Below are positions 34,645-53,739 of a stretch of DNA of 64,000 nucleotides, one piece after another. A program made the translations under genes and the position numbers. Each line of letters starts with the position of its first letter. Positions within the stretch are counted from its first letter, which is position 1. The notes under the pieces are model-generated. The model worked only from the letters and a program-made list of their open reading frames with translations. It did no database searches and had not been told where the DNA came from. Location: NCBI GenBank assembly GCA_009841615.1, contig VXLL01000014.1:62001-126000 (forward strand), read 5' to 3'. This DNA comes from Gammaproteobacteria bacterium. GTDB taxonomy: Bacteria > Pseudomonadota > Gammaproteobacteria > Pseudomonadales > Azotimanducaceae.

Positions 34645-35240
34645 GGTGCGCATTTTAACTTTGAGAATTACATCAGTTAGTCTCCTCAAAAAACTGATAG
34701 GAAAAAAAATGTGAGTCTTCTAAGTGGTATATCCACTTTATTGACTGTCGCTTTGTCCCTTTTAAAGATGTGCACGTTAGTGGGAATGAAACTCTTGAAC
34801 GGAATCGGAATAGTGAGTCATGTTCTTATGCATGTAAGTCGGGTGCATAAACTTTCTGTGTCATTGATCATACTGCCTTTCGCTCTTCCAATTCGTCTCT
34901 CGCCTAGAAAGTGTGGTCTGAAACCCAATCATGAAACGGATGAAGAAGTAGCCGTGAACTACTAAGCGTCACAACGAGAACCACTAAAGAAAAAAATCAG
35001 CCGGATCTGGTTCTTACAATATTCTCAATTTCGTAGCCGACCCCAACAAGCAATCTAGCTCACTGCCCCAAGAAAACAAAGTTAGAGTTTAAATCCATGC
35101 TGAACAATTGCTCCATGATTGACTCTTGGGAAATTAGTTGGGAAAATCAGACGACCGCTCAACACTGACGCATTCAATCCACTGCTTTAGTACTTTGAGA
35201 AATTGACCAGTAGTAGATACATTTCACACTTGGGACAGGG
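34645..35240. other. Non-coding divergent promoter region
   Basis: About 600 bases between the minus-strand DUF262 gene and the plus-strand type IIG gene. It should hold promoters in both directions. A hydrophobic open frame at 34711-34965 lacks a convincing start site and family resemblance and was not called. Confidence 0.5.
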
Positions 35241-38385: not shown

Positions 38386-39591
38386 CTAAATTTGGTTCCA
38401 GCCGCCACTCAGCGCGTCCAGCATGGCGACTCGAGACTGCCAAATTTCTAACTCGAGTGAGGCTTTAGGTTTTGCAGAGTTGTACCATTTAGATTCTCGT
38501 ACAGGGAAAATCACTTCATCCCAATATCGCTCGTAATCTTGCGGTTTTAGACTTGGCTTAAGGCTAAGTAATCGTTCAAGAGTGCGTTTGTTTACATTGT
38601 TCCAAGGAGTGAAAGTATCAGGCCGTTTTATCGCTAACAGTCGAGCTCCTACGCCAAGACCGTGAGGTTTACCGTTCAAAGCTTCTTTGAATCCCTCTAC
38701 ATATTTCATATAGTCTTCTCGGTACACGACACCATTGTTGGGAATATGGTCTAACCCTTCCCCCAATGTTTGTAGTTGGTTACCATTGACATTACCGTAA
38801 ATGATTTGGGTGAAGTTCCCATAAGCTCTCGCGCGTCCAAAATATCCGATTTCAATTTCGGAAAACTTTCCTTCCTTTGGATGATGCGATCCGGCAAGAC
38901 CTCGCCTTGTGTTAGGAGGGAGTTGATGAAATGGTATGTCTTTTTCGAAATCTTCTAGTGCATACTTCAGCAACATCACGGCTTCCTTTCTCTGACGAAT
39001 TGTTGAACAATTTTGAATTTGCTTGTAATACTCCTTCCAAGTCCACGACAACAATTCACTCTCTACCGTTCTCTCTTTACCTTCGATTATCTGCCTCCTA
39101 TTCCATTGTTCTCGGTAAGTGTTCAGACGACTTCTTGAGACGACTTGTGCTTGATCGTAGTAAGATCGAACGATCTCTAAAGCTCTAGTCTTTAACACTT
39201 CTGAGTCCTGTTCTCGACTACTTACGTGCAGCATCAACTCAGTATTGTTTGTCATTCCTCCTACGGTCAGGTTTGCGCTTCCTACAAGTAAGTCCCATTC
39301 TTTACCAGACCAGAACACATAGACCTTAGGATGAAATACGCAGCTCGTCTTTTCGTCAAAAATGAACTTGATATTCGATCTGTTTCTTACGCACCAGTCA
39401 AGAACCTCCCAATGTGTTTGAGAAAAGTGAGTACCAATGACCCCGTACTCAATCTTACTCTTGGCATTTATGAAACTCTCAAACACTTTCGTTCGGTGAC
39501 TGGCCCACGCGACAGCAAATGCGACCTTGCTATGTTTCGAAGTCAGTTCGATTAATTTTGATGATGTTTCTTGACTGTTAAGAAGTTTCAC
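38386..39591 (-). CDS. PLD-family nuclease-like protein of the defence island
   Basis: A 401-residue protein. The N-terminal domain has a single phospholipase-D-type half-site: FHPKVYVF with H87 and K89, followed by LLVGSANLTVGG containing the conserved GSxN (S105, N107). One such motif per chain means activity would need a dimer. The C-terminal part has ARLLAIKRPDTFTPWNNVN and a YERYWDEVIFPV segment, known from PLD-domain restriction-type proteins. It faces away from the C5 methyltransferase gene (divergent, about 240 bases). DISARM normally includes a PLD protein, DrmC, but this one is longer than the usual DrmC and is not in its position behind drmB, so its identity as drmC is uncertain. 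Confidence 0.8.
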   Translation of the reverse strand: MKLLNSQETSSKLIELTSKHSKVAFAVAWASHRTKVFESFINAKSKIEYGVIGTHFSQTHWEVLDWCVRNRSNIKFIFDEKTSCVFHPKVYVFWSGKEWDLLVGSANLTVGGMTNNTELMLHVSSREQDSEVLKTRALEIVRSYYDQAQVVSRSRLNTYREQWNRRQIIEGKERTVESELLSWTWKEYYKQIQNCSTIRQRKEAVMLLKYALEDFEKDIPFHQLPPNTRRGLAGSHHPKEGKFSEIEIGYFGRARAYGNFTQIIYGNVNGNQLQTLGEGLDHIPNNGVVYREDYMKYVEGFKEALNGKPHGLGVGARLLAIKRPDTFTPWNNVNKRTLERLLSLKPSLKPQDYERYWDEVIFPVRESKWYNSAKPKASLELEIWQSRVAMLDALSGGWNQI

Positions 39592-39828
39592 TTCACATTA
39601 TTCCTTGTTGTGCTGTCGAAAGAAAACAAAACATTTTAGTAAGAGTTGGTTCGAAGCATTGGTGAGATTATTCGACGCTTCCCGTTTCAGTAAGCAAGAC
39701 ATCATGAAGTGCCCGATTTCAAAGACAAAATTGCCACTACGCTAAAATTTGTGCAAATAATCTACATCATGAGCTTAGAGTTATGAAGAATCTGACAGGG
39801 ACTAGTGTCGTTCAGCAGTGAGACTTCT

Positions 39829-41016
39829 ATGACAGCCGATTCTCCTGTTCGAAGATTCATTCTGCAAAACCATGCTGGAGTTTCTCCACGGAAGGTCGGG
39901 ATCAACTGTTTTTGCCCACACAAGTTTGCCCCAAGTACTAAAGGGGACGACTTCACTTTCATCGATCTCTTCTCTGGTATTGGTGGGCTTCGTAAAGCGT
40001 TCGAGACTATTGGTGGAAAATGTGTCTTTTCATCTGAAATCGATCACTTTTGTCAGACGACATACAACGCAAATTACGGAGATCACCATGTTGTAGCAGG
40101 GGACATCACAAAAATTGGGTCTAAAGAGATTCCGCCACACGATATGCTTCTTGCCGGATTTCCCTGTCAACCATTCTCACTCGCTGGTGTTTCCAAGAAA
40201 AACGCTTTAAATCAGCCCCACGGTTTCCGTTGTGAAACTCAAGGCACTTTGTTCTTTGATGTCGTCCGTATCCTAGCCGATTGCCGCCCCCGTTGCTTTC
40301 TGCTAGAAAACGTTAAAAATCTCGTCAATCACGACCGGGGTCGAACGTTTCGTGTGATCAGGGAAACTCTACAGGATACACTGGGCTACCGAGTGCATGA
40401 ACGGGTGCTCAACGCAAGGTTTTGGGTTCCCCAACATCGAGAACGCATCTTTATTGCTGGTTTTCGCGATGATACTGGATTCTCTTTTGACAGCATGAGG
40501 TTGCCAGAAACCTCCAGCCCAAAGCTCGAGTCGATTTTACATCCTGAAAATGGAACGGAGGATCCTGAAATTCGCTTCACGGAAGGTCGACTCGCCAAAG
40601 TTCACTCTCGATATACGTTGTCCGAGCATCTATGGGATTATCTTCGAGCCTACGCAGAGAAACACCGTCGAAAAGGTAATGGTTTTGGTTATGGTCTCTT
40701 TGGTCCGGATGATGTTGCTAGAACGTTGTCAGCTAGATATTTCAAAGATGGATCTGAGATTCTTATTCGACAACGTAAAAATAAACGCCCTCGTCGATTG
40801 ACACCTCGTGAATGTGCGCGTCTCATGGGCTTTGACCAAATTGGACGCGCACCTTTTCAAATTCCAGTATCGGACACTCAAGCATATAAACAATTCGGAA
40901 ACGCAGTGGTAGTTCCAGTAGCAGAAGCGGTAGCACGACATATGGAACCTTTTATCAAATCAGGGTCAGAAGATGTCACGATCCAAGCTCAAGTAGCGTT
41001 GAAACATCGAATTTAG
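39829..41016 (+). CDS. DNA (cytosine-5) methyltransferase, candidate DISARM DrmMII, predicted CCWGG-type
   Basis: About 395 residues from ATG 39829 (an in-frame GTG lies at 39805). Motif order is complete: I FIDLFSGIGGLRKAF, IV GFPCQPFSLAG with the catalytic C113, VI LLENVKNLV, VIII QHRERIFIAGFR, IX ARLMGFD and X QFGNAVVVPVAEAV. It transfers a methyl group from SAM to C5 of cytosine. The next gene, 18 bases on, is an EcoRII homologue, and EcoRII-type systems recognise CCWGG; the characterised class 2 DISARM methyltransferase is also reported to methylate CCWGG. CCWGG is therefore the predicted target, by inference. N-terminal 40 residues before motif I contain a short Cys/His pair (CFCPHKF) that M.EcoRII-type enzymes may share. 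Confidence 0.93.
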   Translation: MTADSPVRRFILQNHAGVSPRKVGINCFCPHKFAPSTKGDDFTFIDLFSGIGGLRKAFETIGGKCVFSSEIDHFCQTTYNANYGDHHVVAGDITKIGSKEIPPHDMLLAGFPCQPFSLAGVSKKNALNQPHGFRCETQGTLFFDVVRILADCRPRCFLLENVKNLVNHDRGRTFRVIRETLQDTLGYRVHERVLNARFWVPQHRERIFIAGFRDDTGFSFDSMRLPETSSPKLESILHPENGTEDPEIRFTEGRLAKVHSRYTLSEHLWDYLRAYAEKHRRKGNGFGYGLFGPDDVARTLSARYFKDGSEILIRQRKNKRPRRLTPRECARLMGFDQIGRAPFQIPVSDTQAYKQFGNAVVVPVAEAVARHMEPFIKSGSEDVTIQAQVALKHRI

Positions 41017-41034
41017 CTAATATCACAATAGAAA

Positions 41035-42249
41035 ATGGCACTGATAGACCTCACAGACTGGCTAGTAGAGAACCATTTCTCCCAAGACAATATCGCTTGG
41101 TGCGTTAAGAGACTTTCTGGTAACGACACGTTTGCCACTAGCTCCCATCAGGCAGGTATATACATGCCCCGCCAGTTTATGTTTGAAGTATTTCCTTCAA
41201 TCGATCGTTCTGCCGATGTTAATCCCGATGTTTCCTTTGACCTGTACATCGATTCACACGCCGGTTACTACAACGCGCGCGCGGTCTACTACAACCAAAA
41301 GTCTCGCAACGAAGTTCGAATCACTCGCCTTGGAGGTGCTACGTCTCCCTTACTCGATTCCGAAAGCACTGGTGCGCTTTCAATATTTTCGTTCAATCGT
41401 ACTAACTCAGCAAACATAGTACAGTGTAATGTATGGGTTTGTAACTCGGTGTTGGAGGAAGATGTCATATTAGATTCTGTTGGATGGGTTGAACCCGGTT
41501 CTTTTCGCGTCGTTGGATTTGACGGGCTTCCTTTAGATTCGGAAACTGGTCGTGAATGCAACCTGAATCATGACAATATTCCTTCGAAGTGGTTCGATTC
41601 GTTTCCCAGTGTCGACGAAGTAATTGAGAAAGTAGTCGAACTTTGCTCTTTTGACACTCTGGATGCCGATGAGCGGCTTATCCGTAGACGAGAATGCGAG
41701 TATGAGCTTTTTCGGAAAATCGAAGAGATTCTAACTTTACCTATCGTCCGACAAGGGTTTGAAACGGTAGAAGAATTTGTGTCAATTGCACAAGCGACAC
41801 TTCAAAGGCGTCGTGTTCGTTCCGGTCGCTCTTTGGAACTACACATGCGCCAAATCCTTAAAGAGGAAGGGTTACAAGAACACAAGGAATTCAGCTATAA
41901 CGTCGAAACTGAGAACGGAAAGCGAACGGACTTCCTCTTTCCGACCAAAGTATGTTACGACGATACCAGCTTCCCATCCGAACACCTTCGGATGTTGGCA
42001 GTCATGACCACCTGTCGTGAGCGATGGCGTACCATCATTTCCGTTGCGAAACGAATATCGGTCAAGCATCTTCTCACACTTCAACAGGGAATTTCTGTTG
42101 AGCAATTTTCAGAAATGAAAAATGCAGGGGTGCAATTGGTGGTGCCAACCGGACAGATCGCTTCCTATCCGCCTCCTCTGCGTGAAGAATTGACCACGAT
42201 AGAGAGTTTTGTTGGAGATATACGTCTCCTCAAGTCGGAGCATCACTAA
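41035..42249 (+). CDS. EcoRII-family endonuclease with altered active site (probably catalytically dead)
   Basis: A 404-residue protein, the same length as EcoRII, in an apparent operon with the C5 methyltransferase. The N-terminal half resembles the EcoRII effector-binding domain and the C-terminal half (from about residue 265, RSGRSLELHMRQILKEEG) the catalytic domain. Numbering runs parallel to EcoRII: D299 (in TDFLFP) and Y308 are present, as is R330. The segment that in EcoRII reads LAVKTTCKDRWR is LAVMTTCRERWR here, so K324 is Met (codon ATG at 42004-42006) and K328 is Arg. K324 is the PD-(D/E)xK lysine, so cleavage should be abolished or very weak. The rest of the frame is intact and well conserved, for example KHLLTLQQGISVEQF and LVVP, arguing against simple decay. 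Confidence 0.9.
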   Translation: MALIDLTDWLVENHFSQDNIAWCVKRLSGNDTFATSSHQAGIYMPRQFMFEVFPSIDRSADVNPDVSFDLYIDSHAGYYNARAVYYNQKSRNEVRITRLGGATSPLLDSESTGALSIFSFNRTNSANIVQCNVWVCNSVLEEDVILDSVGWVEPGSFRVVGFDGLPLDSETGRECNLNHDNIPSKWFDSFPSVDEVIEKVVELCSFDTLDADERLIRRRECEYELFRKIEEILTLPIVRQGFETVEEFVSIAQATLQRRRVRSGRSLELHMRQILKEEGLQEHKEFSYNVETENGKRTDFLFPTKVCYDDTSFPSEHLRMLAVMTTCRERWRTIISVAKRISVKHLLTLQQGISVEQFSEMKNAGVQLVVPTGQIASYPPPLREELTTIESFVGDIRLLKSEHH

Positions 42250-42957
42250 TCGAGCTAAAACTCTAGTTACCTAGCGTCTAACAAATGAATGTTGTACGCA
42301 AATCGTTTTATTACACTCTCTTATAGGTGAGTCTTAGATCTGTGAAGAAATTATCTGTAGCAATGTCGTCTGAACTCGCCAGCAAAGTACTACGTATTAA
42401 TCACGGAATCGTCTACTCCAACGTTTTAAGAGACCAACTTGTCGATTCCCCCGCGAATAACGGTGTTTGGGCCTGTCAAGAAGGCTTACGACGGAGACGT
42501 GCACTCCGTCCAAAGTTCGATTTGTGACATCGACTAGTCATGAGCAACGATGAGTCTTTCGAACGGCTATATTGGTTTGACTCTCCACCATTCGAGACAT
42601 TTGGCTCATTCTAAGGTACGACCACTAAGAACGACAGAGAATCACCGTAAATTGGACCAAAAGAATGATTACCATTAAGCGAAGAGGGTCCCCACAGAAT
42701 CGCTGCCCACAGATTGGGAGACAAAGTCAGCTTAGCCAACCGATATACGGTGTCAAACCTCATCATAACTGGAAACCTTTTCCTTGCGGGGACCGCTACC
42801 CAAGTAGTAGCTAAAAAAATCGGTACTTACACTACCGGACCCGGTAAATATGTTTTGAACGTTCGAACGTCCACGTTCTCGCGTTGTGTCTTTAAATTTC
42901 AAATGACATTCGATCAATCCAACGAAATGTGACGTACGATAATTGTCCTGCCTCACA
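42250..42957. other. Non-coding stretch inside the defence island
   Basis: About 700 bases between the EcoRII homologue and the convergent glycosylase gene. Short open frames exist but have no recognisable protein. A stretch around 42690-42830 keeps a readable frame over some 45 codons but I could not assign it to a family. Confidence 0.45.
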
Positions 42958-43632
42958 TCATTGACGAATTTTCCGACCGAATTGACAAAGTGATAAAAGC
43001 ATGCACCTTTCGCAGCGAGGTCTTCGTGCGCGACAAATCGCGCGGCCGTGTGCAAGAGAGTTTACATGATAGTCGAATCGGAGATGAGGAGGCACGACGA
43101 CGGAGAGTTCTGTATCGACAACTGCAGGATCAGCTGTAGTAACAAGACCTAATCGATATGCAACTCTTGCAGAGTGGGTGTCGACGGGTAGTACTTGACG
43201 ACCCAAACTATACATCAAAATACACTTTGCGGACTTCACGCCGATTCCAGGAAGGGACATCAGGTAACTCTGAGCGCGTTCATCGTCATAGTCAAACAAG
43301 GAGTCAAGGGACACTCTACCGAAGTCTTGGTTCAAACGAGTCGCGATCTGCTTGAGGCGAATTGCCCGATGTCGATATAGCCCTGCGTCGAGAATGAGAT
43401 TCTCTAGAATGGAAAGGGGTATCTCGAGTAATTGATTCCAGTCTGGGATCGCAGACTTTACACGGTCGTAGACACGTTCATAGTTAATACTGTTCGTCAT
43501 CTGTGAAAGAAGAATAAATACTAATTCGTCGAGAGGATCGGACTTGTTGTTCAGTAACGGTGAGTGATAGCTCGCCTTCATTCGGGCAATGCTAATCGCT
43601 GCCCTCTTTTTTCTTGTTCTGAGTGTGTGCAT
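42958..43632 (-). CDS. HhH-GPD DNA glycosylase, endonuclease III / mismatch-glycosylase type
   Basis: About 224 residues from ATG 43632 (alternatives: GTG 43686 and ATG 43581). The helix-hairpin-helix reads LPGIGVKSAKCILM with the catalytic lysine K133, and 18 residues later the catalytic aspartate D151 in VLPVDTHSARVAYRLGL, the same spacing as K120/D138 of E. coli Nth. A [4Fe-4S] cluster motif C-x6-C-x2-C-x5-C (CRARRPRCERCMLLSLC) closes the protein. The N-terminus is basic. It removes damaged or mismatched bases; lysine indicates a bifunctional glycosylase/lyase. Next to a C5 methyltransferase operon, a role in repairing T:G mismatches from 5mC deamination, as for Mig.MthI or, by a different mechanism, Vsr, is plausible inference. 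Confidence 0.88.
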   Translation of the reverse strand: MHTLRTRKKRAAISIARMKASYHSPLLNNKSDPLDELVFILLSQMTNSINYERVYDRVKSAIPDWNQLLEIPLSILENLILDAGLYRHRAIRLKQIATRLNQDFGRVSLDSLFDYDDERAQSYLMSLPGIGVKSAKCILMYSLGRQVLPVDTHSARVAYRLGLVTTADPAVVDTELSVVVPPHLRFDYHVNSLAHGRAICRARRPRCERCMLLSLCQFGRKIRQ

Positions 43633-43686
43633 TCTCGGTATTGTTACAGGTTTTTCCTTTTGACGCTTGAGGTTCGCCACACACAC

Positions 43687-44081
43687 ACAACTTTGCGATA
43701 ACAGACTTCAAATGTACACTTCAGCTTCATGACTAGATGTTTGGCCGTTGAGGAACCAAATTCTTGGGAACAGGATTCGACATCTTTCCACATACGCTAC
43801 GTGATTAAATTGTTTGAAGTTCCGTTTAACCAGGAAGTCGAGCAACAAATGCTCAAATTTACCACATTGTTTTTCTTCCAATCGACGTATATGTTAAATC
43901 AAATTCATACCACATACGTTCGTTGACAGATGGGGTTCCCTCTTACTAGTTGAAAGAAATTTAGGAGCGGAACACGAACGGTTGTACTTTGTAAAATGCG
44001 TTTTTTTCATATTTAGTTGTCAAGTAGTACTTTCAGATCGTAGGTCGTAGAGGTTTGTTTGAGTCTGACTAAGTACAAATT
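43687..44081. other. Non-coding stretch upstream of drmE
   Basis: About 395 bases that should hold the promoter of the drmE-helicase-drmA-drmB operon and that of the divergent glycosylase gene. AT-rich near 43990-44020; no clear promoter pair or operator identified. Confidence 0.45.
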
Positions 44082-46664
44082 GTGAGAAGTCAAGAATCTT
44101 ACCACCAAGACTTAATTGACGAATTACAGCGCAGGTTTCCCTTGGTAGAGCAGCTGGTCGGGAGGTTTGGTACTGATTTGAACGGTGAGTGTATACCGAG
44201 GTTTTTCACTCTCATTATGTCAGCAGCATGCCAAACTGAACAAAGTGCTTGCTGCATAGTGCTTAACAAAACGCAGGGCACTGCTGTTACAGCGGCTTTA
44301 TTTCTAGCTCTCGAAGCTCTGAGAGTCGATCTACCAGAACTGAAGGATCACTATGTTAAGTCAGCACTGCAATATGGACAAAAAGTAAAGGTTCTACCGG
44401 AAAACGCTGTTTACGTATATCGGGGACGTTGTGAGGAATTTCCAGATTTCTTGTGGCTTGGCGCGTTGGGAGAAACGAGCAAAACTACGTTTACAGTTTC
44501 TGAAGTGCTTCGACTAGAGCCAACCGAACGTGTGAAACCTAAGGGCAAGCTCACCGGTCTCTCGACTAAGTGTAGCAAGGGTCGCTTAGACGAACTTCTC
44601 GAACTAAATACTTATGGTAATAAAAGCTTGTTCCAGAATCGGGTTCTGGTATACATGGCGCAAGCAAAGTTTTTGAATGTATTGAATTCCATTGCGCTGA
44701 CCCGAAATAATGTAAAGGAATACACACAATTACAAGAACTGATTCCATGGGGAAGAGTCGACCATCACGGCGACGTTAAACCGAACGACCCTTATCAGGT
44801 TGCTGGCGAACCATTACTTGCTGTTACAAGAATACCCGAAGATTTGGCATTAGCCTGCGCTCGCACTCGTCGTCATAGTAAAGTCGTAATTGTCGACGAT
44901 GTGGCGGGTTTCGCAAGAAACATTCAAGCATTTGACGACATCTCCCAGCTACAAAAGGTTGTGATTTTAGCAGCTCCTCACGAATGCCAAATCATTGATC
45001 TGCTTCGAGACAGAGGGTGTCAAGTGTGGCATATGTCTTCAGATCAAATTTTGTTGGGCGAAAGTTCTCGAGATGAGAGATCGCACCGAAGCCTTGTCGG
45101 TTCCACGGTCTGCGCGGCACGAATTCTTCGAAAACTAAAAGTGGAGGTCATTCACTGCAATGATAATTCACTTGAGTCGATAGAAGCAAACTTGAACCAA
45201 GCTGAACGGGGTTATCGATCATTAGTAGACAAAACTCAAGAAAGTGAGGATTTAATAAGTTCGTTATACGGAGTTCTATTAGATTTCAGTGAAAGCTGTT
45301 TTGGAATCTCCGAAGAAACTAGGACGAGTTTAGAGTGCGCGTCACGAAATTTCTATCAAAATAGAAAGTGGATGGAACCACAGGTTGAACTTCCTATAGG
45401 TAAAGCCATTAGATGCCTAGAAAAGTGCGCAAACGGAATGGGATTTGGACTAGGGAAGGCTCAAGCATTAACTAAGTTTTTCGAGAATAACAGTGAGAGT
45501 CCATGGATTGTTGCAACCCGCACACTAAGGACAGCCCATCGCCTCAGAGCAGACTTTGACAAACTAGCGATCGATGCAGTGGTAAGACCAATCGATGGGA
45601 TGTCCTTTGAATCAGCACACCATGGTACCATACTTCTTGGGTGGCCTGGTCAGCGAAGGTTTGCGCTGTTGAAAAGTCAGGGGATTACATCCAATATTGT
45701 AGTTTTAGCCTATCCTTTTGAGTGCGATTGGTATTCAGCATACGAAAAAAGGACGCGAGACAGCGACCGTTTGAAACGCTTAAACGCTAAGGAGTTGTCG
45801 TTGATGTTGGGCATTCAACCACAACATGCGGCTTCCTTGATGCCTAAGGAGTTAGCTTCTGAACAAATCAATCTTGGCAGAGATCCGTCAATATTCAGAG
45901 TCGAAGAGCGCACAAATCGACGTCGAAAAGCGGGAATTGCGGAAACCAATGTTATGGTCGAAAGCCGGGAAGCTCACTCGGTCGAATTCTACGGTAATTG
46001 CTACGCTTACATGACTGAATGGGCCGAACTTCCGCGTCTCAATGATCTTTTGGATTTGGATACATCAAACATAAAAAGTATCGAACACGTCAGAGTTACT
46101 GCATTGACACCTGGTGACTTCGTGTTGTTTCGAGGTTCCGGTGACAAAGAGATTACTCGGTTGATAGCTGAAGACATTCTCGGAATCGGTGAATATGAAA
46201 GATTACGAGCATTAGCAGAACAGTGGAAGTCATCGCTTTCTTGTCTTGGGAATACTGTAGCAAATATTCACCAGGCGCTCAGTTTGAAGGGACTTCGTCG
46301 AACTTCTACGACGATTCGAGGATGGTTGGAAAATTCTGACCGTATTGGTCCGGGCGATTTGAATGATGTCATGCTGATCGCTGAAGCTACGCAAGACAAA
46401 AAATTGTTGTCAAACTCGGAAGATGTGAAACATGCAATCTCATCGATTCGAAGTTCGCACATCACGGCAGGAAGACAACTGACCTCCCTTATATTGAGTG
46501 AGTTGGGGCGGAAACTTGACGAACTCAATGAGCAGCCATTGTTGTTGGATTTGGAATTCGGAGAAGCATGGGTTGTATGTGTGCAACAAATAGAACCAGA
46601 TTGTCAAGGATATCCAATCAATAAAGTCAACCGTCTAATGTGGTCAGAAGATGCAATATTTTGA
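44082..46664 (+). CDS. drmE: DISARM protein DrmE (class 2)
   Basis: An 860-residue protein starting with GTG at 44082; the start is uncertain because no ribosome binding site is obvious. The central part has VVIVDDVAGFARNIQAFDDI, a Walker B-like beta strand with tandem Asp followed by an R-N/D-x-Q-A-F-D-D-I helix that I associate with DrmE. A second block at about residues 490-580 (SPWIVATRTLRTAHRLRADF, then TILLGWPGQRRFALL) resembles the second RecA-like lobe of a degenerate helicase; no Walker A lysine motif is seen. Biochemical function of DrmE is not established. Assignment rests on position (first gene before drmA-drmB in class 2 DISARM), size and these motifs, so it is less certain than drmA/drmB. 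Confidence 0.72.
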   Translation: MRSQESYHQDLIDELQRRFPLVEQLVGRFGTDLNGECIPRFFTLIMSAACQTEQSACCIVLNKTQGTAVTAALFLALEALRVDLPELKDHYVKSALQYGQKVKVLPENAVYVYRGRCEEFPDFLWLGALGETSKTTFTVSEVLRLEPTERVKPKGKLTGLSTKCSKGRLDELLELNTYGNKSLFQNRVLVYMAQAKFLNVLNSIALTRNNVKEYTQLQELIPWGRVDHHGDVKPNDPYQVAGEPLLAVTRIPEDLALACARTRRHSKVVIVDDVAGFARNIQAFDDISQLQKVVILAAPHECQIIDLLRDRGCQVWHMSSDQILLGESSRDERSHRSLVGSTVCAARILRKLKVEVIHCNDNSLESIEANLNQAERGYRSLVDKTQESEDLISSLYGVLLDFSESCFGISEETRTSLECASRNFYQNRKWMEPQVELPIGKAIRCLEKCANGMGFGLGKAQALTKFFENNSESPWIVATRTLRTAHRLRADFDKLAIDAVVRPIDGMSFESAHHGTILLGWPGQRRFALLKSQGITSNIVVLAYPFECDWYSAYEKRTRDSDRLKRLNAKELSLMLGIQPQHAASLMPKELASEQINLGRDPSIFRVEERTNRRRKAGIAETNVMVESREAHSVEFYGNCYAYMTEWAELPRLNDLLDLDTSNIKSIEHVRVTALTPGDFVLFRGSGDKEITRLIAEDILGIGEYERLRALAEQWKSSLSCLGNTVANIHQALSLKGLRRTSTTIRGWLENSDRIGPGDLNDVMLIAEATQDKKLLSNSEDVKHAISSIRSSHITAGRQLTSLILSELGRKLDELNEQPLLLDLEFGEAWVVCVQQIEPDCQGYPINKVNRLMWSEDAIF

Positions 46665-46678
46665 ATTTAGCTAGTTTA

Positions 46679-48445
46679 ATGGCCAAGATGATTCCACCAT
46701 ACATCGCTGACCTAGCCAATAGTACTGCTGAAAGTAGGGTATTTGCGTTACTTGAAACTGATCAAAACACTCGTAATTGGACTGTATTACATTCACTGGG
46801 GCTCGGCTTCGACGTGGATAGTCCGTTTGGAGAAATTGACTTCGTCGTAATCATTCCGAACGAGGGCATAGTCTGCCTAGAGATTAAAGGAGGAAGATTA
46901 TCTTGTCAAGACGGCGTTTGGTATGTCACGGACCGATTTGGCAGGCGTGAACAATTACAGCGAAGTCCAGTGTTGCAAGCAAGGAACGCAGGGTTTGCTT
47001 TAAGAAGGTCAATAGTTCAAAATTTTGGCATGAGTGCCCCGGAATCTCGTTGCCCCGTGGGATCTGTAGTAGTCTTTCCAGATATAACTTGTCCGCCGGT
47101 ATCACCTGAATTCGAACGATCCGATGTTGTTGACGTTGACGACTTGAGGAATCCATTGTCTACTTCGATTATGAGAGTCGTAAGAAATCGCATGCGAAAA
47201 TATCAGCATGACAATGGAAACCGTCACCCAACAAAAGCTGAAGTCAATACCATTCTCCAATTTCTAAGGCCAAACTTTGACATGATCGTCTCCAGGAACG
47301 TCACAATTGATCAATCTGAAGCCAAACTGTTGCATTTGACTCACGAACAATACAGTAGGCTCGACGAACTCGAAGCTAATCGAAGTTGTTTATTTGAAGG
47401 GGCTGCCGGAACAGGGAAAACGTTACTAGCCATTGAATATGCGCGTCGAGCAGCACTCAAAGGTTCATCTGTGCTTCTTGTTTGCTTCAATCGTCTTCTG
47501 GGAATTTGGCTAAATCATAGTCTCAAACATGAGAATGTCGTAGCCGGTAGCTTTCATTCGATTACAAGACGACTTATATATTCAAGTAGTGCCGCCCGTG
47601 AGTTTGCGCAGTGTGAAACGATCGCTCGTAATGAGCAACATTCGAACTCGCTCTTTGGAGATCCATACTTCACATACTGCGAGCAAGCTCTCGAAGAAAT
47701 CGGAGCTGAGTATGACGTTCTGGTTGTCGACGAAGCGCAGGACTTTAGCTGCCCTCAGTTTGTTGAGGTGTTCGACCAGTTATTGCGAGGTGGTATGGCA
47801 AGAGGGTCTTGGGCTATATTCGGCGACTTTACAAGACAGGCTATTTTTGGACATCCTTCCCGTTTTATTGCAAGACTTGGGGAGTATGGAGAGCATTTTG
47901 TCAGTGCTAAATTGACATTGAACTGCCGAAACACTCGCAGAATTGCAGAAGAGACGTGTGCTATAGCAGGCTTCAATAGACCTCCATTTAAGCTTGCAAG
48001 TGAAACGGGATTACCTGTCGAATATAGATATGTTTGCTCAACCACACACTTAGTGGAATCTGTTACAAGCGTTGTGTTAAATCTTCTACAAGAACGAGTG
48101 GAAGCTAGAGACATTGTGCTCCTTTCTCCGAGACGCTTTGGATCTTCGGGATTAGCTGGTCTCTCGCAAATTGGAGGCCTAAATTTGTTTGAGTCCTCTA
48201 CCGATATTAAAGCTCCAAGAGATACCATTCGTTTTTCTACGATCCATGCATTTAAAGGATTAGAAAGTCAAGTAGTAGTCTTGATTGACGTTGAATCGAT
48301 CGATAGCGAACAAACCCAATCGCTACTCTACTTGGGCATGTCGAGGGCTAAAAGTTTACTAATATTGGTTATGTACGAAAGTGCACGGCAGTCTGTCGAA
48401 AACCTAATCAAAAATTCAATCGTAGATAGGCTAGCGAATGAATGA
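46679..48445 (+). CDS. NERD-domain UvrD-like helicase inserted in the DISARM operon
   Basis: 588 residues from ATG 46679; an in-frame GTG at 46640 would overlap the drmE end. The N-terminal NERD nuclease-related domain has GEIDFVVIIPNEGIVCLEIK, with the D...ExK pattern of PD-(D/E)xK folds. The superfamily 1 helicase follows: Walker A GAAGTGKT with K247, motif II VVDEAQDF (D351-D355), motif III-like GDFTRQAIFG, motif IV-like LNCRNTRRI, motif V STIHAFKGLESQVVVL and motif VI YLGMSRAKSLLIL. All look intact. It sits between drmE and drmA, and its stop overlaps the drmA start by 8 bases, so it is translated with DISARM. The five-gene class 2 system as first described has no such gene; a DNA-processing role within the system is inferred. 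Confidence 0.85.
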   Translation: MAKMIPPYIADLANSTAESRVFALLETDQNTRNWTVLHSLGLGFDVDSPFGEIDFVVIIPNEGIVCLEIKGGRLSCQDGVWYVTDRFGRREQLQRSPVLQARNAGFALRRSIVQNFGMSAPESRCPVGSVVVFPDITCPPVSPEFERSDVVDVDDLRNPLSTSIMRVVRNRMRKYQHDNGNRHPTKAEVNTILQFLRPNFDMIVSRNVTIDQSEAKLLHLTHEQYSRLDELEANRSCLFEGAAGTGKTLLAIEYARRAALKGSSVLLVCFNRLLGIWLNHSLKHENVVAGSFHSITRRLIYSSSAAREFAQCETIARNEQHSNSLFGDPYFTYCEQALEEIGAEYDVLVVDEAQDFSCPQFVEVFDQLLRGGMARGSWAIFGDFTRQAIFGHPSRFIARLGEYGEHFVSAKLTLNCRNTRRIAEETCAIAGFNRPPFKLASETGLPVEYRYVCSTTHLVESVTSVVLNLLQERVEARDIVLLSPRRFGSSGLAGLSQIGGLNLFESSTDIKAPRDTIRFSTIHAFKGLESQVVVLIDVESIDSEQTQSLLYLGMSRAKSLLILVMYESARQSVENLIKNSIVDRLANE

Positions 48446-51400
48446 GACTTTAAGAATGAGATCGAACATTCTTGACTTTTTACGAAAGGAAATCGTAGGT
48501 CCCGCCCCCGGTTATCCTGCGATTCAAATTGATTCTGACCACCAAGAGATTCTTCGTGAACAAGACTCACCCCGGCAAAGGTACAGTGCAGGCGTACTGT
48601 TTCCCCAGCGTTCTAGAGTCCACCGGCAAAGCGAGACTCATGATGATGAATTGGTTCCAGTAGACGCTGACTCACCAGAACAAGCCCCAGATAAAACGAT
48701 TAAAGACTTAGTGTTTGAAGCGAATACGACCGACACCGAGGACGAACAATCTCAAACCGATCGAGATGTGTCGATGGCCAACGAATTCCTCCCTAGTGCA
48801 ATGGGTCTTTCGACACTAGTGCGCGTGCCTGATGTGTTAGAGGTGCGAGTTGAAGCAGGTGTATACGAACGTAGGGAAATGACGTGGTCTTCTCGCAGGG
48901 AGAAAAATAATGGTGAATACACACAGAAGGGTTGGTGGCGTAGCCAGATCGAACAGATAGTTGATGTGAAATCCGATGAGCTGTTAGGATCGAACACTCA
49001 GGTAGTTAATAGAACGGTGTATGAAGAAGAGGGCTGCGTAGCTCTAGAACTTCATGTCGTTAGTCGCATTCTTCCTGATTTCAGTCCGAAGGAAAGACAG
49101 CGACTGGTCACAATCACATTAATCAATCGCAAGCGAAGCGAAAACAAAACGCCGAGTAGTGAAGATTGTTTTTACCAGTGTGGCTTTTCTGTTAAAGCAG
49201 GATCTGATGAACCTTGTTTCTCTTACTATCCTGAACACTCGATCAATTGTAAAAATCTCAACGAACTTTCACTTCAACTGTTACACCTTCATCGACGGTC
49301 GTTCGCTGTTGGACACGGTTGTGCGGCTGACTGGGAGGACACGCAAGGCAACATGGCAAAAGTTGTTCGAACTGAAGTCATGCCTACCTACGAAACTAAA
49401 CCGGTTCTTCCCACTAAGCTTGAAGGACTGAATCTTTGTATGAAACGCCTAAGAGAAGGTAATAAGGAATCTTCGATTCGTCTGTGTGCGCTACTGAGAG
49501 ACAAATATGCAGAGTGGATTCAACAGAAGGAGCAAGACTTGTCGGCTATTGACGATTTATCTCTCGAATTAAGACAAACAGCCATGCGCCATTTAGAGAA
49601 CTGTCGACTATGTCTAAAGCGTATCGATGACGGTATCGCAATATTGACTAAAGATCATAACGTGTACCGAGCTTTTGCATTAATGAATGAGGCAATGTTA
49701 ATGCAACAAGTTCACTACAAGATATCTTCCGAAAACCGTAGGGAGTGGATACTGAACCAAAACGAACTGAAGCTAGAGCGGCCATTTGAAAGACCATCTT
49801 ATGAATCTGATCACGAATGGAGACCTTTTCAACTAGCTTTTATCTTAATAAATTTGCGGTCGCTCGCGGTCCCAAGTTCGTTAGACCGTGAGATCGTTGA
49901 CTTAATTTGGTTTCCTACTGGAGGCGGAAAAACAGAGGCTTATCTGGGACTGTCAACAATTTCTATGTTCTTGAGACGACTGCGAAATGCTGAATGTGCT
50001 GGTACGACTGTCCTGATGCGTTATACACTGAGACTGTTGACTACTCAACAGTTTCAGCGAGCAGCTTCCTTAATTTGTGCTTGTGAGGTACTGAGGCGAC
50101 GCGACAATGAAACACTTGGGGACGAGCGATTTTCTATTGGTCTTTGGGTGGGAGGAGACGTGACTCCGAATAGAGAGACAGATGCGATTCGCGCACTTCA
50201 GAGTCTTCTGCGTGGACAATCCACCAATAAGTTTATTCTTAGAAGCTGTCCTTGGTGTGGCGCGGCAATGGGATCACTGAAAGTCGGTCGCCGATTCGAT
50301 TGTAAAGGATACAAACAGCTTTCACATCCGACAAGGGTGAGACATGTGTGTGAAGAACCTAACTGTGAATTTAATTCGGATTCGGGTCTTCCGATCAGCG
50401 TAATAGACGAACATATCTACAACGAACCTCCTACACTCTTAATCGGAACAGTTGACAAGTTTGCTATGTTAGCGTTTCGACCTGAAGCTCGAAAACTCTT
50501 TGGAATTGACATTCAATGTCCACCACCGGAACTGATTATTCAGGATGAATTGCATTTGATTTCTGGTCCGCTTGGCTCGATGGTTGGTCATTACGAAACT
50601 GCCATTGATGCACTGTGTTACAGGGAATCAGATGGAATACGGATTGGTCCTAAAATTGTTGCGTCTACTGCCACAATCTCGCATGCGGAGAACCAAGTTA
50701 AGAGTCTTTATGGTCGAGATGTATTCCTGTTTCCCCCTCAAGCAATTAGATTGGGAGACTCTTTTTTTGCGGAGGAGCGAGATGATGAAATGGGTCGCCT
50801 ATATGTCGGTGTATTTGCAACTGCGCTGTCTTCGCACGTGAGATCTCAAGTAATAACGATGAGTGCACTGTTACAAGCACCAAATCTGTTTGGAGAGCAG
50901 CACGCAGAAGTCGTTGATCCCTATTGGACGCTGGTAGGATATTTCAACAGCTTACGGGAATTAGGCCACGCAGCGACGTTAATTCGTGCCGACATTCGCG
51001 AACATTTGAATGCGATGTGGAACCGCCTCGGGCTTCAAGTTGAACAAGTTAGAAAGTTGAGCAAAGATCCCCGACGATGGTTGCGATCAAGCGTCGAGCT
51101 CACGAGTCGAGTACAAAGCGAAGAGATTCCTTCGATTTTGCAAAAGTTGTTTGTGAGTTATGATGGCACACAATCCTCTGAAGTGGTTGACGTATGTTTC
51201 GCTACAAACATGATTCAAGTAGGTGTGGATATACCGAGATTGAGTCTCATGACAATAGTGGGACAACCTAAAACTACATCGGAGTATATTCAAGCATCCA
51301 GTCGTATCGGTAGACTTCTAGAACGACCGGGTATTGTCATTACAAATTACAACCCCTCTAAACCACGAGACCGATCACACTACGAAAATTTTCGTTCCTA

Positions 51401-51869
51401 TCACCAGTGTATTTATAGGTACGTAGAACCGACCAGTGTGACTGCTTTTGCAGCACCGGTACGCGAAAGAGCTCTTCACGCACTAGTAGTCATCTTGTGT
51501 AGATTTTGGGGTGATCAGGAGCTTCGAGAGCGACCTACGCAGTGTCCAGACGAAAAACTAGTTCGCAGAGTTAAAGACTGTATAAAGCACCGAGTGAAGA
51601 TAGTAGATCCGGCGGAATGGAGCTTTGTTGAGAATGAAATCGATGAGTTCATTGAAGTGTGGTCGAACACTCTACCCTCTCGATACGGTGATTTCGGTCA
51701 ATTTGATAGTACTCTTCCATTGATGTACCCAGCTGGGGGGCAGCAACACGAAGAGTGGAACAATTGGCCCTATGCCACTCCAACTTCAATGCGAAGTGTT
51801 GACTCTGAATGTTCCGCACGTCAGTTACTCTACGGCTACGGCGTCAATAGTTTCAAAGAGAGCTATTAG
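48438..51869 (+). CDS. drmA: DISARM helicase DrmA
   Basis: A 1143-residue protein with the complete DrmA pattern. The N-terminal domain (to about residue 450) is followed by motif I WFPTGGGKTEAYLGLS (W491, K498), LMRYTLRLLTTQQFQRAAS, a CPWCG zinc-finger-like insert (about residues 605-645), GTVDKFAML, motif II IIQDELHLISGPLGSMVG (D703-H706), motif III STATISHAENQ, then YWTLVGYFNSLRELGHA, ATNMIQVGVDIPRLSLM (motif V) and QASSRIGR (motif VI, from residue 952), and the DrmA-type C-terminal VEPTSVTAFAAPVRERALHA. DrmA with DrmB forms the DISARM core that binds unmodified incoming DNA. The ATG overlaps the end of the helicase gene upstream. Confidence 0.95.
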   Translation: MNETLRMRSNILDFLRKEIVGPAPGYPAIQIDSDHQEILREQDSPRQRYSAGVLFPQRSRVHRQSETHDDELVPVDADSPEQAPDKTIKDLVFEANTTDTEDEQSQTDRDVSMANEFLPSAMGLSTLVRVPDVLEVRVEAGVYERREMTWSSRREKNNGEYTQKGWWRSQIEQIVDVKSDELLGSNTQVVNRTVYEEEGCVALELHVVSRILPDFSPKERQRLVTITLINRKRSENKTPSSEDCFYQCGFSVKAGSDEPCFSYYPEHSINCKNLNELSLQLLHLHRRSFAVGHGCAADWEDTQGNMAKVVRTEVMPTYETKPVLPTKLEGLNLCMKRLREGNKESSIRLCALLRDKYAEWIQQKEQDLSAIDDLSLELRQTAMRHLENCRLCLKRIDDGIAILTKDHNVYRAFALMNEAMLMQQVHYKISSENRREWILNQNELKLERPFERPSYESDHEWRPFQLAFILINLRSLAVPSSLDREIVDLIWFPTGGGKTEAYLGLSTISMFLRRLRNAECAGTTVLMRYTLRLLTTQQFQRAASLICACEVLRRRDNETLGDERFSIGLWVGGDVTPNRETDAIRALQSLLRGQSTNKFILRSCPWCGAAMGSLKVGRRFDCKGYKQLSHPTRVRHVCEEPNCEFNSDSGLPISVIDEHIYNEPPTLLIGTVDKFAMLAFRPEARKLFGIDIQCPPPELIIQDELHLISGPLGSMVGHYETAIDALCYRESDGIRIGPKIVASTATISHAENQVKSLYGRDVFLFPPQAIRLGDSFFAEERDDEMGRLYVGVFATALSSHVRSQVITMSALLQAPNLFGEQHAEVVDPYWTLVGYFNSLRELGHAATLIRADIREHLNAMWNRLGLQVEQVRKLSKDPRRWLRSSVELTSRVQSEEIPSILQKLFVSYDGTQSSEVVDVCFATNMIQVGVDIPRLSLMTIVGQPKTTSEYIQASSRIGRLLERPGIVITNYNPSKPRDRSHYENFRSYHQCIYRYVEPTSVTAFAAPVRERALHALVVILCRFWGDQELRERPTQCPDEKLVRRVKDCIKHRVKIVDPAEWSFVENEIDEFIEVWSNTLPSRYGDFGQFDSTLPLMYPAGGQQHEEWNNWPYATPTSMRSVDSECSARQLLYGYGVNSFKESY

Positions 51870-51903
51870 CTATCGTTCGGGTCTTATAGGTTAAGAATTG
51901 CTG

Positions 51904-53739
51904 ATGCCTAACTTAAAGCCGATTCGTCGTAGTCAACTCATTGCACCTTTTGGCGTTGGCGCACTCGTGGATTTCCGGAATGACGAATCTTTGATGACTG
52001 CAGGTTTAGACGAGTGGCCCGATGCGAACGATGAGTGTCCCTCCGATTGGCTTGTAACGGAAGAAAGATTGCAGACTCGATTAGGTGTTAGTCACTTCAG
52101 ACTTCCCGCCGATTATCGGGAACAAGGATCCCAATCCGCACTGGAGAATCGGCACATTCCATTTGTACGTTTTCCGCTGTGGCACTATTGTCCGATCAGA
52201 GGAACGATGGCAAAGCTGAGGCTATTTAGTGGTCGTGTGCGATGTCCGTGTATGAAGGGTTTAGGCTGCGGATCGCGAAGACCTCTACTTATTCCAAGCC
52301 GATTTATAGCTGTGTGCCCGAAGGGACACATTGAGGACTTTCCTTTTATGGAATGGGTTCACAAAGATGGATATTGGGATGACACGCACAAGTTGCGCCT
52401 TCTTCCTGGTCGATCGTCTGCGAGTCTGTCTGGAGTAGAGATTCAGTGTTCATGCGGAAAGTCCGAAACAATGGTTCGCACCTTTAATTTCGATGCTAAT
52501 TCTGGAGGATCTCTTCACTCAATTGGGTTCGACTGCTCTGGAGGGAAACCTTGGTTAGGGGCTGAAGGTGGACGTAATCAATGCGGTGAATTTCTTCGAG
52601 TAGTGCAACGAGGAGCGTCAAATGTGTATTTTCCGTGCACAGTTTCCTCTATTTATTTACCACTGTGGGGCACAGACAGCACTCGAAAGATAAATCAGCT
52701 AATTCAGGAACCAAAAATCTGGAAAGTTCTCACAGCGGGATTGGACGACGGCAAGTACATACAGGCAACACGGTGTGACATTGTCGCAGAAATGCTAGGA
52801 GTCAAATCTGAAGAGCTCAAGCGAGTTGCACAGAAAAGACTGGATGGAGCTCCGTTAGTTCACGAGCATTCCGAAGAAGCATTCAGGCGACAAGAATATG
52901 ACGCGCTACGAACAGGTAGTGGGGGCGTAACGACAGAGTTAATGGTCAGTGTTATACCAGGAGACAATTTTGCGACGGACGTGGCACACTTTGTTCAGAA
53001 CGTCGGGCTGGTTAAAAAGTTGCGAGAAACAAGAGCACTTGTTGGGTTCTCTAGGCTCTTACCAATAGAAGATCCGACTTCGTCGAAGCTTCTACCAATA
53101 GCCGAACGTAGGGAAATGAACTGGTTGCCCGCTTCTGTGGTATACGGCGAAGGAATCTTTGTCGAATTTAACGCTGACACGATTAGAGAGTGGGCTCTCA
53201 GACCGGTCGTCATCGATCGTATAGCTGGACTGCTTAATACCTACAATCGAAGGAGAGTCGAACGTGGTATTAAAGAAACTCGAGTGAGTGCGAAGTATGT
53301 TCTTCTGCATACGTTCGCACATGCACTGATCCGAGAATTGAGTTTTGCTTGTGGATATGGAAGTGCAGCGCTCAGAGAGAGGATATATTGCGAGTTGGAC
53401 AATGTTGAGTGTCCGATGCAAGGTGTTCTCATTTATACGGCATCGGGTGACTCAGAAGGATCTCTTGGCGGATTGGTACGCCAAGGAGAACCAAGTAGAT
53501 TCAACATCGTTGTCGAGAATGCTATTCGACGAATGGCTTGGTGCTCTAGCGATCCGGTCTGCATAGAGAGCAACGGGCAGGGTATTGATAACGCAAATCT
53601 TGCGGCATGTCACGGGTGTGTACTACTTCCCGAAACTTCGTGCGAACACGGAAATCGTCTTCTTGATCGAGGATTACTTGTTGGAACGTTACAGGATTTC
53701 AACCTGAGATTTTTTAAACAATTCGACACAATCGAATAA
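51904..53739 (+). CDS. drmB: DISARM protein DrmB (DUF1998)
   Basis: 611 residues from ATG 51904; an in-frame TTG at 51898 would add two residues. The opening IRRSQLIAPFGVGALVDF, the CPKGHIEDFPFMEW block and the DUF1998 region (from about residue 467: LLHTFAHALIRELSFACGYGS; then GVLIYTASGDSEGSLGGLV; AACHGCVLLPETSCEHGNR, quoted in parts) are diagnostic for DrmB. Conserved Cys pairs suggest zinc binding. DrmB pairs with DrmA to form the DNA-engaging complex. It lies 34 bases after drmA and is the last DISARM gene: no drmC follows. Confidence 0.95.
   Translation: MPNLKPIRRSQLIAPFGVGALVDFRNDESLMTAGLDEWPDANDECPSDWLVTEERLQTRLGVSHFRLPADYREQGSQSALENRHIPFVRFPLWHYCPIRGTMAKLRLFSGRVRCPCMKGLGCGSRRPLLIPSRFIAVCPKGHIEDFPFMEWVHKDGYWDDTHKLRLLPGRSSASLSGVEIQCSCGKSETMVRTFNFDANSGGSLHSIGFDCSGGKPWLGAEGGRNQCGEFLRVVQRGASNVYFPCTVSSIYLPLWGTDSTRKINQLIQEPKIWKVLTAGLDDGKYIQATRCDIVAEMLGVKSEELKRVAQKRLDGAPLVHEHSEEAFRRQEYDALRTGSGGVTTELMVSVIPGDNFATDVAHFVQNVGLVKKLRETRALVGFSRLLPIEDPTSSKLLPIAERREMNWLPASVVYGEGIFVEFNADTIREWALRPVVIDRIAGLLNTYNRRRVERGIKETRVSAKYVLLHTFAHALIRELSFACGYGSAALRERIYCELDNVECPMQGVLIYTASGDSEGSLGGLVRQGEPSRFNIVVENAIRRMAWCSSDPVCIESNGQGIDNANLAACHGCVLLPETSCEHGNRLLDRGLLVGTLQDFNLRFFKQFDTIE

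Follow-up and report, generated by a model that had tools for sequence, protein, structure and literature searches.

A probable class 2 DISARM variant with a NERD nuclease-helicase gene between drmE and drmA

A 64,000-nucleotide (nt) stretch of the gammaproteobacterial contig VXLL01000014.1, referred to here as the window, contains a locus of the defence system DISARM (defence island system associated with restriction-modification) in which drmE, a gene for a NERD nuclease domain joined to a superfamily 1 (SF1) helicase, drmA and drmB follow one another on the same strand (Table 1). A C5-cytosine methyltransferase gene and an EcoRII homologue lie upstream. The locus is likely to be a variant of class 2 DISARM, with a drmE-NERD helicase-drmA-drmB core, a C5 methyltransferase and no DrmC, and the NERD protein is very probably a true component of it. 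Compared loci are given L-numbers and compared genomes G-numbers.

Table 1. Genes of the DISARM locus and its surroundings, in window coordinates.
Feature	Position	Strand	Supporting profiles
GmrSD-type (type IV) restriction protein	32719-34689		
Type IIG-like N6 methyltransferase/endonuclease	35241-38231		
PLD-domain protein, not DrmC	38386-39591	-	PLDc_2 26 bits (cut-off 27); RE_NgoFVII 25 bits (cut-off 23.8)
C5-cytosine methyltransferase (Dcm/M.EcoRII type; candidate DrmMII)	39805-41016	+	PF00145, dcm, DrmMII
EcoRII homologue, reading frame intact, active-site residues altered	41035-42249	+	EcoRII-N, EcoRII-C
HhH-GPD endonuclease III-like DNA glycosylase	42958-43686	-	PF00730 49 bits; aligns to endonuclease III 8a5c
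drmE	44082-46664	+	NF038316 175 bits (cut-off 80)
NERD (PD-(D/E)xK) nuclease domain + SF1 (UvrD-type) helicase	46640-48445	+	NERD, UvrD_C_2
drmA, superfamily 2 (SF2) helicase	48438-51869	+	NF038325 968 bits (cut-off 950, short form)
drmB, DUF1998/MZB protein	51898-53739	+	NF038324 446 bits (cut-off 240); MZB 34 bits

In a first-pass annotation of this DNA, drmA and drmB were recognised from motifs, and drmE and the methyltransferase were fitted to the class 2 layout. These assignments are borne out by profile searches, in which DrmA, DrmB and DrmE all exceed the curated NCBI cut-offs, DrmE and DrmB standing clear of background, and the methyltransferase reaches 428 bits with the DrmMII profile. 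The drmA product also matches the solved DrmA 7s9v (1e-146), and the drmE product contains the Pfam domain DrmE_C (44 bits, cut-off 27), with no family being assigned to it by PADLOC. As had been noted, no drmC directly follows drmB; the two minus-strand genes of Table 1, for the glycosylase and the PLD protein, were absent from that annotation. The NERD helicase gene does lie between drmE and drmA, and its frame overlaps that of drmA by 8 nt; the overlap with drmE that had also been described hinges on a GTG start at 46640, and the relatives of the NERD protein, which begin near MIPP, point instead to a short gap and to an ATG at 46679 or 46688, one of which is probably the true start. Taking into account that the profiles pass their cut-offs, that the open reading frames (ORFs) are found where they had been placed and that the 8-nt overlap is real, the coordinates and most of that first description stand. 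A promoter scan returned 9 sites in the real sequence, fewer than the 19.4 found in shuffles.

The recurrence of the NERD helicase beside drm genes in other genomes is a direct observation, and the helicase thereby withstands the refutation by lack of recurrence that the first-pass annotation had set. In a phylum draw of 398 genomes, drmE exceeds its cut-off in three, and NERD is adjacent in all three; drmA (E up to 1e-40) is present in 15, with NERD adjoining drmA or drmB in four of them (the window's own genome, G359, G289 and G277). In a class draw, NERD (E up to 1e-30) was found in 17 of 369 genomes, nine of which have drmA within the fetched stretch, two of the nine (G558 and G515) carrying a divergent drmA that faces NERD. 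A scan of species genomes gave at least 22 NERD loci, 11 of them weak partial matches (L035-L045) that were left out before counting, and at least 11 near-full-length NERD helicases; among the matches listed, drmA occurs at six of these 11 (one divergent, L033), and at L026 drmE precedes NERD, after which the sequence ends. Thirty-four plasmid records contain NERD, and drmA is adjacent in eight of the 12 that were opened, including L010, which an insertion sequence has disrupted, and L018, which spans the record start. An 80-amino acid (aa) match of 43 bits after drmB in G216 (L064) was not counted as NERD, nor was a 115-aa match of 42 bits in L009 counted as drmA.

The full order drmE-NERD-drmA-drmB is found in the window, L012 (G359), L013 (G289), Verrucomicrobia L024 and Salinarimonas L025, and also, though the DrmE-like ORF is shorter there, in Rhodococcus L005, Microbacterium L028, Thermoanaerobaculia L030 and Ornithinimicrobium L029, the last being cut by a contig end. 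The order is present in several phyla, and in L012 the genes overlap by 4 nt at all three junctions. A second order, UvrD-drmA-drmB-NERD, is seen in L015, L016, L017, L023 and L066 (Rhizobiales and Azospirillum plasmids, and G277), where NERD appears to have joined DISARM in another arrangement. In L124 and L125 (G558 and G515), Vsr, a C5 methyltransferase and NERD are convergent with a divergent drmA/drmB pair. Scanning viral_contigs with the single NERD protein gave no relative, and scanning the same set with alignment A1 gave three loci, of which two encode a NERD helicase and none shows a drm match within its stretch; phage records contributed two partial NERD matches.

The arrangement is reflected in the DrmA tree, which was built from 34 rows after exclusion of 11 of the 45 DrmA-like ORFs (fragments L010 and L071; partial copies L099-L102 and L113; divergent L033, L075, L124 and L125). 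The window falls in a five-row clade (Shimodaira-Hasegawa-like approximate likelihood ratio test, SH-aLRT, 98) in which all rows have the order drmE-NERD-drmA-drmB. This clade is nested in one of 14 rows (SH-aLRT 100) with NERD directly upstream of drmA in 12, the exceptions being Nostoc and Priestia. The three DrmA proteins accompanied by DrmC form a separate clade (SH-aLRT 97), and five alphaproteobacterial-type rows with the order drmA-drmB-NERD form their own (SH-aLRT 100); NERD occurs as well in rows outside the clades named.

The detection of DrmE depends on the model used. A model built here from seven sequences was tried on 18 NERD loci and recognises the ORF immediately preceding NERD in 11, six of these 11 having served in building it and the other five scoring 31.9 to 61.6 bits; the corresponding ORFs of L122, L123, L134 and L006 fail it, and three further loci have no such ORF. 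The DrmE of L014 reaches 65 bits against the curated cut-off of 80, and with the Pfam model L024 (19.9 bits) and L030 (26.4 bits) stay below the cut-off of 27 and L025 has no match. A tblastn search of the plasmids with the window's DrmE gave no match, and with that of L024 it gave two Nostoc records aligned over about one fifth of the query; the drmE search of the class draw (350 genomes) returned the locus of the window itself and a single match below the threshold (20 bits). In L014, L018, L028, L029, L030 and L020, an ORF of 313-351 aa precedes the short DrmE-like ORF and resembles, as a profile, the N-terminal part of DrmE, as though several loci had DrmE divided between two genes, an idea for which the support is no more than moderate (hhalign probability 58.7, E 9e-5). 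In L013 (4613-9991), DrmE is fused to an N-terminal extension of about 900 residues with weak AAA matches.

Several observations weigh against NERD belonging to DISARM, or against the way in which its association has been counted. In the class draw, eight of the 17 genomes with NERD have no drmA in the stretch (four of the eight being on contigs shorter than 11 kb), and neither have four of the 12 opened plasmid records, and among the matches listed four of the 11 near-full-length loci of the species-genome scan are without drm genes, which makes the NERD/SF1 helicases a promiscuous family. Conversely, the five plasmid loci reached by searching with DrmA (L014 and L019-L022, out of 87 matching records) have no NERD match in their stretches, and two loci with drmE (Nostoc L014 and Priestia L020) have no NERD in the stretch read. 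The rows of the tree were partly found through the NERD search, so that clade shares are not population frequencies. As regards DrmE, the model does not detect the gene upstream of NERD in the class-draw loci L122, L123 and L134, the DrmE call in L005 rests on a weak resemblance, 76.6 bits by tblastn, the ORF having no NCBIfam or Pfam match, and the structure model of the window's DrmE (predicted local distance difference test, pLDDT, 49) is too poor for use.

The occurrence of NERD/SF1 helicases without drm genes could be explained if NERD were an independent defence gene, clustered with DISARM only because both occupy defence islands, an idea that also fits the assignment by PADLOC of NERD helicases to other systems (the best match of the window's protein, at 157 bits, being a reverse-transcriptase-associated NERD helicase). 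However, a chance neighbour in an island would vary in place and strand, and yet NERD occupies one and the same place in several phyla, between drmE and drmA and with frames that overlap or abut, and does so within coherent DrmA clades; this explanation is thus considered unlikely. The recurrent order, the DrmA clades and the absence of DrmC from NERD loci make NERD look like a component of DISARM.

In the window's NERD protein both domains exceed their Pfam cut-offs (NERD 50 bits, UvrD_C_2 36 bits). Residues E31, D67 and E81xK83 of the predicted nuclease, together with the Walker residues of the helicase, are invariant in the ten aligned NERD proteins, and we take them to be the catalytic and nucleotide-binding positions. 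A structure model of the protein (pLDDT 79) finds SLFN11, SLFN14, IGHMBP2 and UvrD as its best PDB matches, the human Schlafen proteins SLFN11 (Foldseek E 2e-16) and SLFN14 (2e-13) being the closest structures.

The relation of NERD to DrmC and other PLD nucleases was compared between 12 loci with NERD and 11 without it. A PLD protein lies within 10 kb of drmA in 1/12 of the former and 6/11 of the latter (Fisher p=0.027); the sole NERD locus concerned is the window, whose PLD match is weak and on the opposite strand, and when it is set aside the figures are 0/12 and 6/11 (p=0.0046). This upstream PLD gene was ruled out as drmC, as it reaches 19-20 bits (19 with DrmC_I) against a cut-off of 133, and it probably encodes a neighbouring defence protein. 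For DrmC itself, the difference is less clear, and the PLD contrast thus depends in part on the choices made: DrmC is over its cut-off near drmA in 0/12 loci with NERD and 3/11 without (p=0.093), or 0/10 and 3/8 when divergent drmA are omitted on both sides (p=0.069). Moreover, the class draw supplied 8 of the 12 NERD loci, whereas every locus without NERD stems from the phylum draw, the genomes are not independent, and some contigs are short. Given the unequal draws and the short contigs, these figures suggest, without firmly establishing, that NERD and DrmC exclude each other. In G359, which has the complete four-gene order, no PLDc_2 match is found genome-wide, which bears on the proposal that a PLD nuclease from another source may be borrowed for DrmAB (PMC9142583).

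The methyltransferase scores 274 bits with PF00145, 313 bits with dcm and 428 bits with the DrmMII profile of PADLOC, and since a general type II methyltransferase model scores higher still (479 bits), the DrmMII match is not specific to DISARM. Its translation contains PCQ and ENV, presumably the motifs known by these names in such methyltransferases. It had been described as forming an operon with the EcoRII homologue; the pairing stands, with a spacing of 18 nt, and the pair lies outside the drm operon in the present layout, because 1.8 kb and the glycosylase gene on the opposite strand separate it from drmE. Taking this separation together with the 65% identity (over 378 aa) between the methyltransferase and the dcm of an Acidiphilium EcoRII restriction-modification (R-M) operon, it could be argued that the two genes are a decayed and unrelated R-M module, and that this DISARM has either another methyltransferase or no dedicated one. 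Against this, a C5 methyltransferase is found in the stretch of 13 of the 16 loci that have NERD upstream of drmA or are cut off before drmA, the remaining three being cut by contig or record ends, and G359, a genome devoid of EcoRII-C matches, has the gene of a related methyltransferase 42 nt ahead of drmE, the two enzymes being 42% identical and, to the eye, similar in their target regions. An unrelated module is thus regarded as rather improbable, and it is somewhat more probable than its contrary that the methyltransferase serves both DISARM and the EcoRII module.

As for the site, the methyltransferase is Dcm/M.EcoRII-like and has a target region that, on visual inspection of the alignment, looks similar, so that a CCWGG site shared with EcoRII is plausible. 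CCWGG is given as the methylation mark of DISARM in the available text of a review (PMC12926258). Nevertheless, a methyltransferase paired with EcoRII would recognise CCWGG with or without DISARM. A Vsr or HhH glycosylase is found in 9 of the 13 NERD-drmA stretches with a C5 methyltransferase; in L030 (6755-7360) an HhH-GPD endonuclease III-like glycosylase adjoins the C5 methyltransferase, as near that of the window, and several other loci have Vsr there. The HhH-GPD enzyme may be a partner of the methyltransferase, repairing the T:G mismatches that result from deamination of 5-methylcytosine.

The EcoRII homologue aligns end to end with EcoRII 1na6 (residues 8-397, 5e-92), and both its domains are over the Pfam cut-offs (EcoRII-N 149 bits, EcoRII-C 178 bits). 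However, position 324 is Met in the window and Lys in 23/23 other loci, some only 24-30% identical (25 loci were given, of which the window's copy and a duplicate were not counted), and position 337 is Val in the window and Glu in 11/11 full-length relatives. Pro298 is replaced by Thr, and D299 is kept. We assume that D299, K324 and E337 are the catalytic residues of the PD-(D/E)xK centre of EcoRII. Among the 89 positions invariant in the 11 full-length relatives, the window differs at eight, six of them within 298-337; 22 of the 89 fall at 296-340 (hypergeometric p=0.0025, for a region chosen after the changes were noticed), and in the first 170 residues only one of 29 is changed. When each relative is left out in turn, L081 differs at six of 87 positions, which are scattered along its length, and each of the ten remaining relatives at none to four, so that it is the place of the changes in the window, and not their number, that is out of the ordinary. 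The simplest reading of the alignment is that of a dead nuclease, and the gene is probably a dead relic, although a catalytic residue may have moved.

The first-pass annotation had counted this homologue among the functioning components of the system, a claim that found no support. An active restriction enzyme operating with DISARM on the same CCWGG sites would agree with the 18-nt spacing, with the occurrence of EcoRII relatives beside dcm-type genes elsewhere and with the mild scarcity of CCWGG in the window (47 sites against 61.6 expected), a deficit which by our own estimate is within about two standard errors. Nonetheless, the loss of the otherwise conserved Lys and Glu led to its rejection as an active partner, and an EcoRII gene was found in only one of the 13 NERD-drmA loci having a C5 methyltransferase, which leaves this explanation very improbable. 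Near drm genes EcoRII-C is sporadic: in the phylum draw it is present in 22 of 398 genomes, and only two of the 22 have it at a drmA locus, the window's own and a truncated copy beside the NERD gene of G277, to which a Photobacterium plasmid, with EcoRII-C about 5.6 kb from drmAB, can be added. Plasmids contain one dcm-Vsr-EcoRII operon and one Vsr-EcoRII pair with a methyltransferase match upstream, and the pair in the window looks like such a module, with the HhH glycosylase in the place of Vsr. It is conceivable, if decidedly doubtful, that EcoRII has become a binding-only subunit, its DNA-binding domains retained and its nuclease centre gone, which would recognise CCWGG sites lacking methylation and then recruit or license both DrmAB and the NERD nuclease-helicase; if so, it would give DISARM a sequence-specific sensor.

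On this basis, the following mechanism can be proposed for the variant. The methyltransferase would mark host CCWGG sites, as its family suggests. The Serratia DrmAB is reported to load on unmodified DNA that ends in a single-stranded 5' overhang and to translocate (PMC9142583), and by analogy the DrmAB of the variant would do the same. The NERD protein combines an SF1 motor with a PD-(D/E)xK nuclease at its N-terminus, in which no predicted catalytic residue is altered; it would join the DrmAB complex and cut or unwind the engaged DNA, the task of DrmC elsewhere, with DrmE as a probable adaptor. The EcoRII/methyltransferase pair would be a neighbouring R-M module whose nuclease is dead and whose methyltransferase is probably shared as the self-mark of DISARM. 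How DISARM destroys phage DNA is an open question, as DrmC has been reported to be dispensable and is often missing (PMC9142583). The fixed position of NERD in the four-gene order and the lack of DrmC make it a candidate effector for this step, and we consider the chances that NERD supplies the nuclease to be evenly balanced.

The genes for a GmrSD-type restriction protein and a type IIG-like enzyme are located just upstream of the locus, which therefore belongs to a defence island.

Among the systems known to combine such elements, TALON (PMC12458937) resembles the locus in having a YprA-family helicase and a NERD-type nuclease in one operon. However, DrmA and DrmB are separate DISARM-type genes in the window, where the partner fused to NERD is an SF1 helicase, and membership in TALON, which also has TPR-CSD and TBP genes, was rejected for lack of an unsplit YprA helicase and because of this fusion. 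In the available text of that paper NERD is named only for TALON, and what could be consulted of two others places it in Mokosh I and Nhi-like systems (PMC10952713) and in BREX PglW and DndF, with no DISARM (PMC12839542). In the open-licence PMC literature, as far as its available text goes and with subscription papers outside the search, no link between NERD and DISARM was found, so that the variant is recurrent and, within that literature, undescribed. A precedent for an accessory nuclease-like protein in DISARM-like operons is offered by the RmuC/ShdA protein (PMC10270631), which belongs to another family and is reported there to be limited to Pseudomonas.

Compared with EcoRII/M.EcoRII systems, the window has full-length EcoRII-N and EcoRII-C domains and an adjacent Dcm-type methyltransferase, and differs in its altered active-site residues and in having an HhH glycosylase where two plasmid modules carry Vsr. 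With class 2 DISARM it shares DrmA, DrmB and DrmE proteins that pass curated profiles and a DrmMII-type C5 methyltransferase, and it differs in the lack of DrmC, in the NERD/SF1 gene between drmE and drmA and in the position of the methyltransferase outside the operon, beside an EcoRII homologue. The PADLOC 2022 definition of type 2, in the form accessible to us, requires DrmC, and both DISARM subtypes are described as sharing drmABC in the available text of PMC10270631; the window does not have DrmC, which PMC9142583 nevertheless calls dispensable, and the locus has therefore been filed as a variant and not as a strict type 2 member. A rule that requires DrmC, such as that definition, would miss the NERD-bearing lineage altogether, and this lineage, spread over several phyla with NERD in a fixed place of a DISARM operon without DrmC, offers a concrete candidate for the effector of the system.

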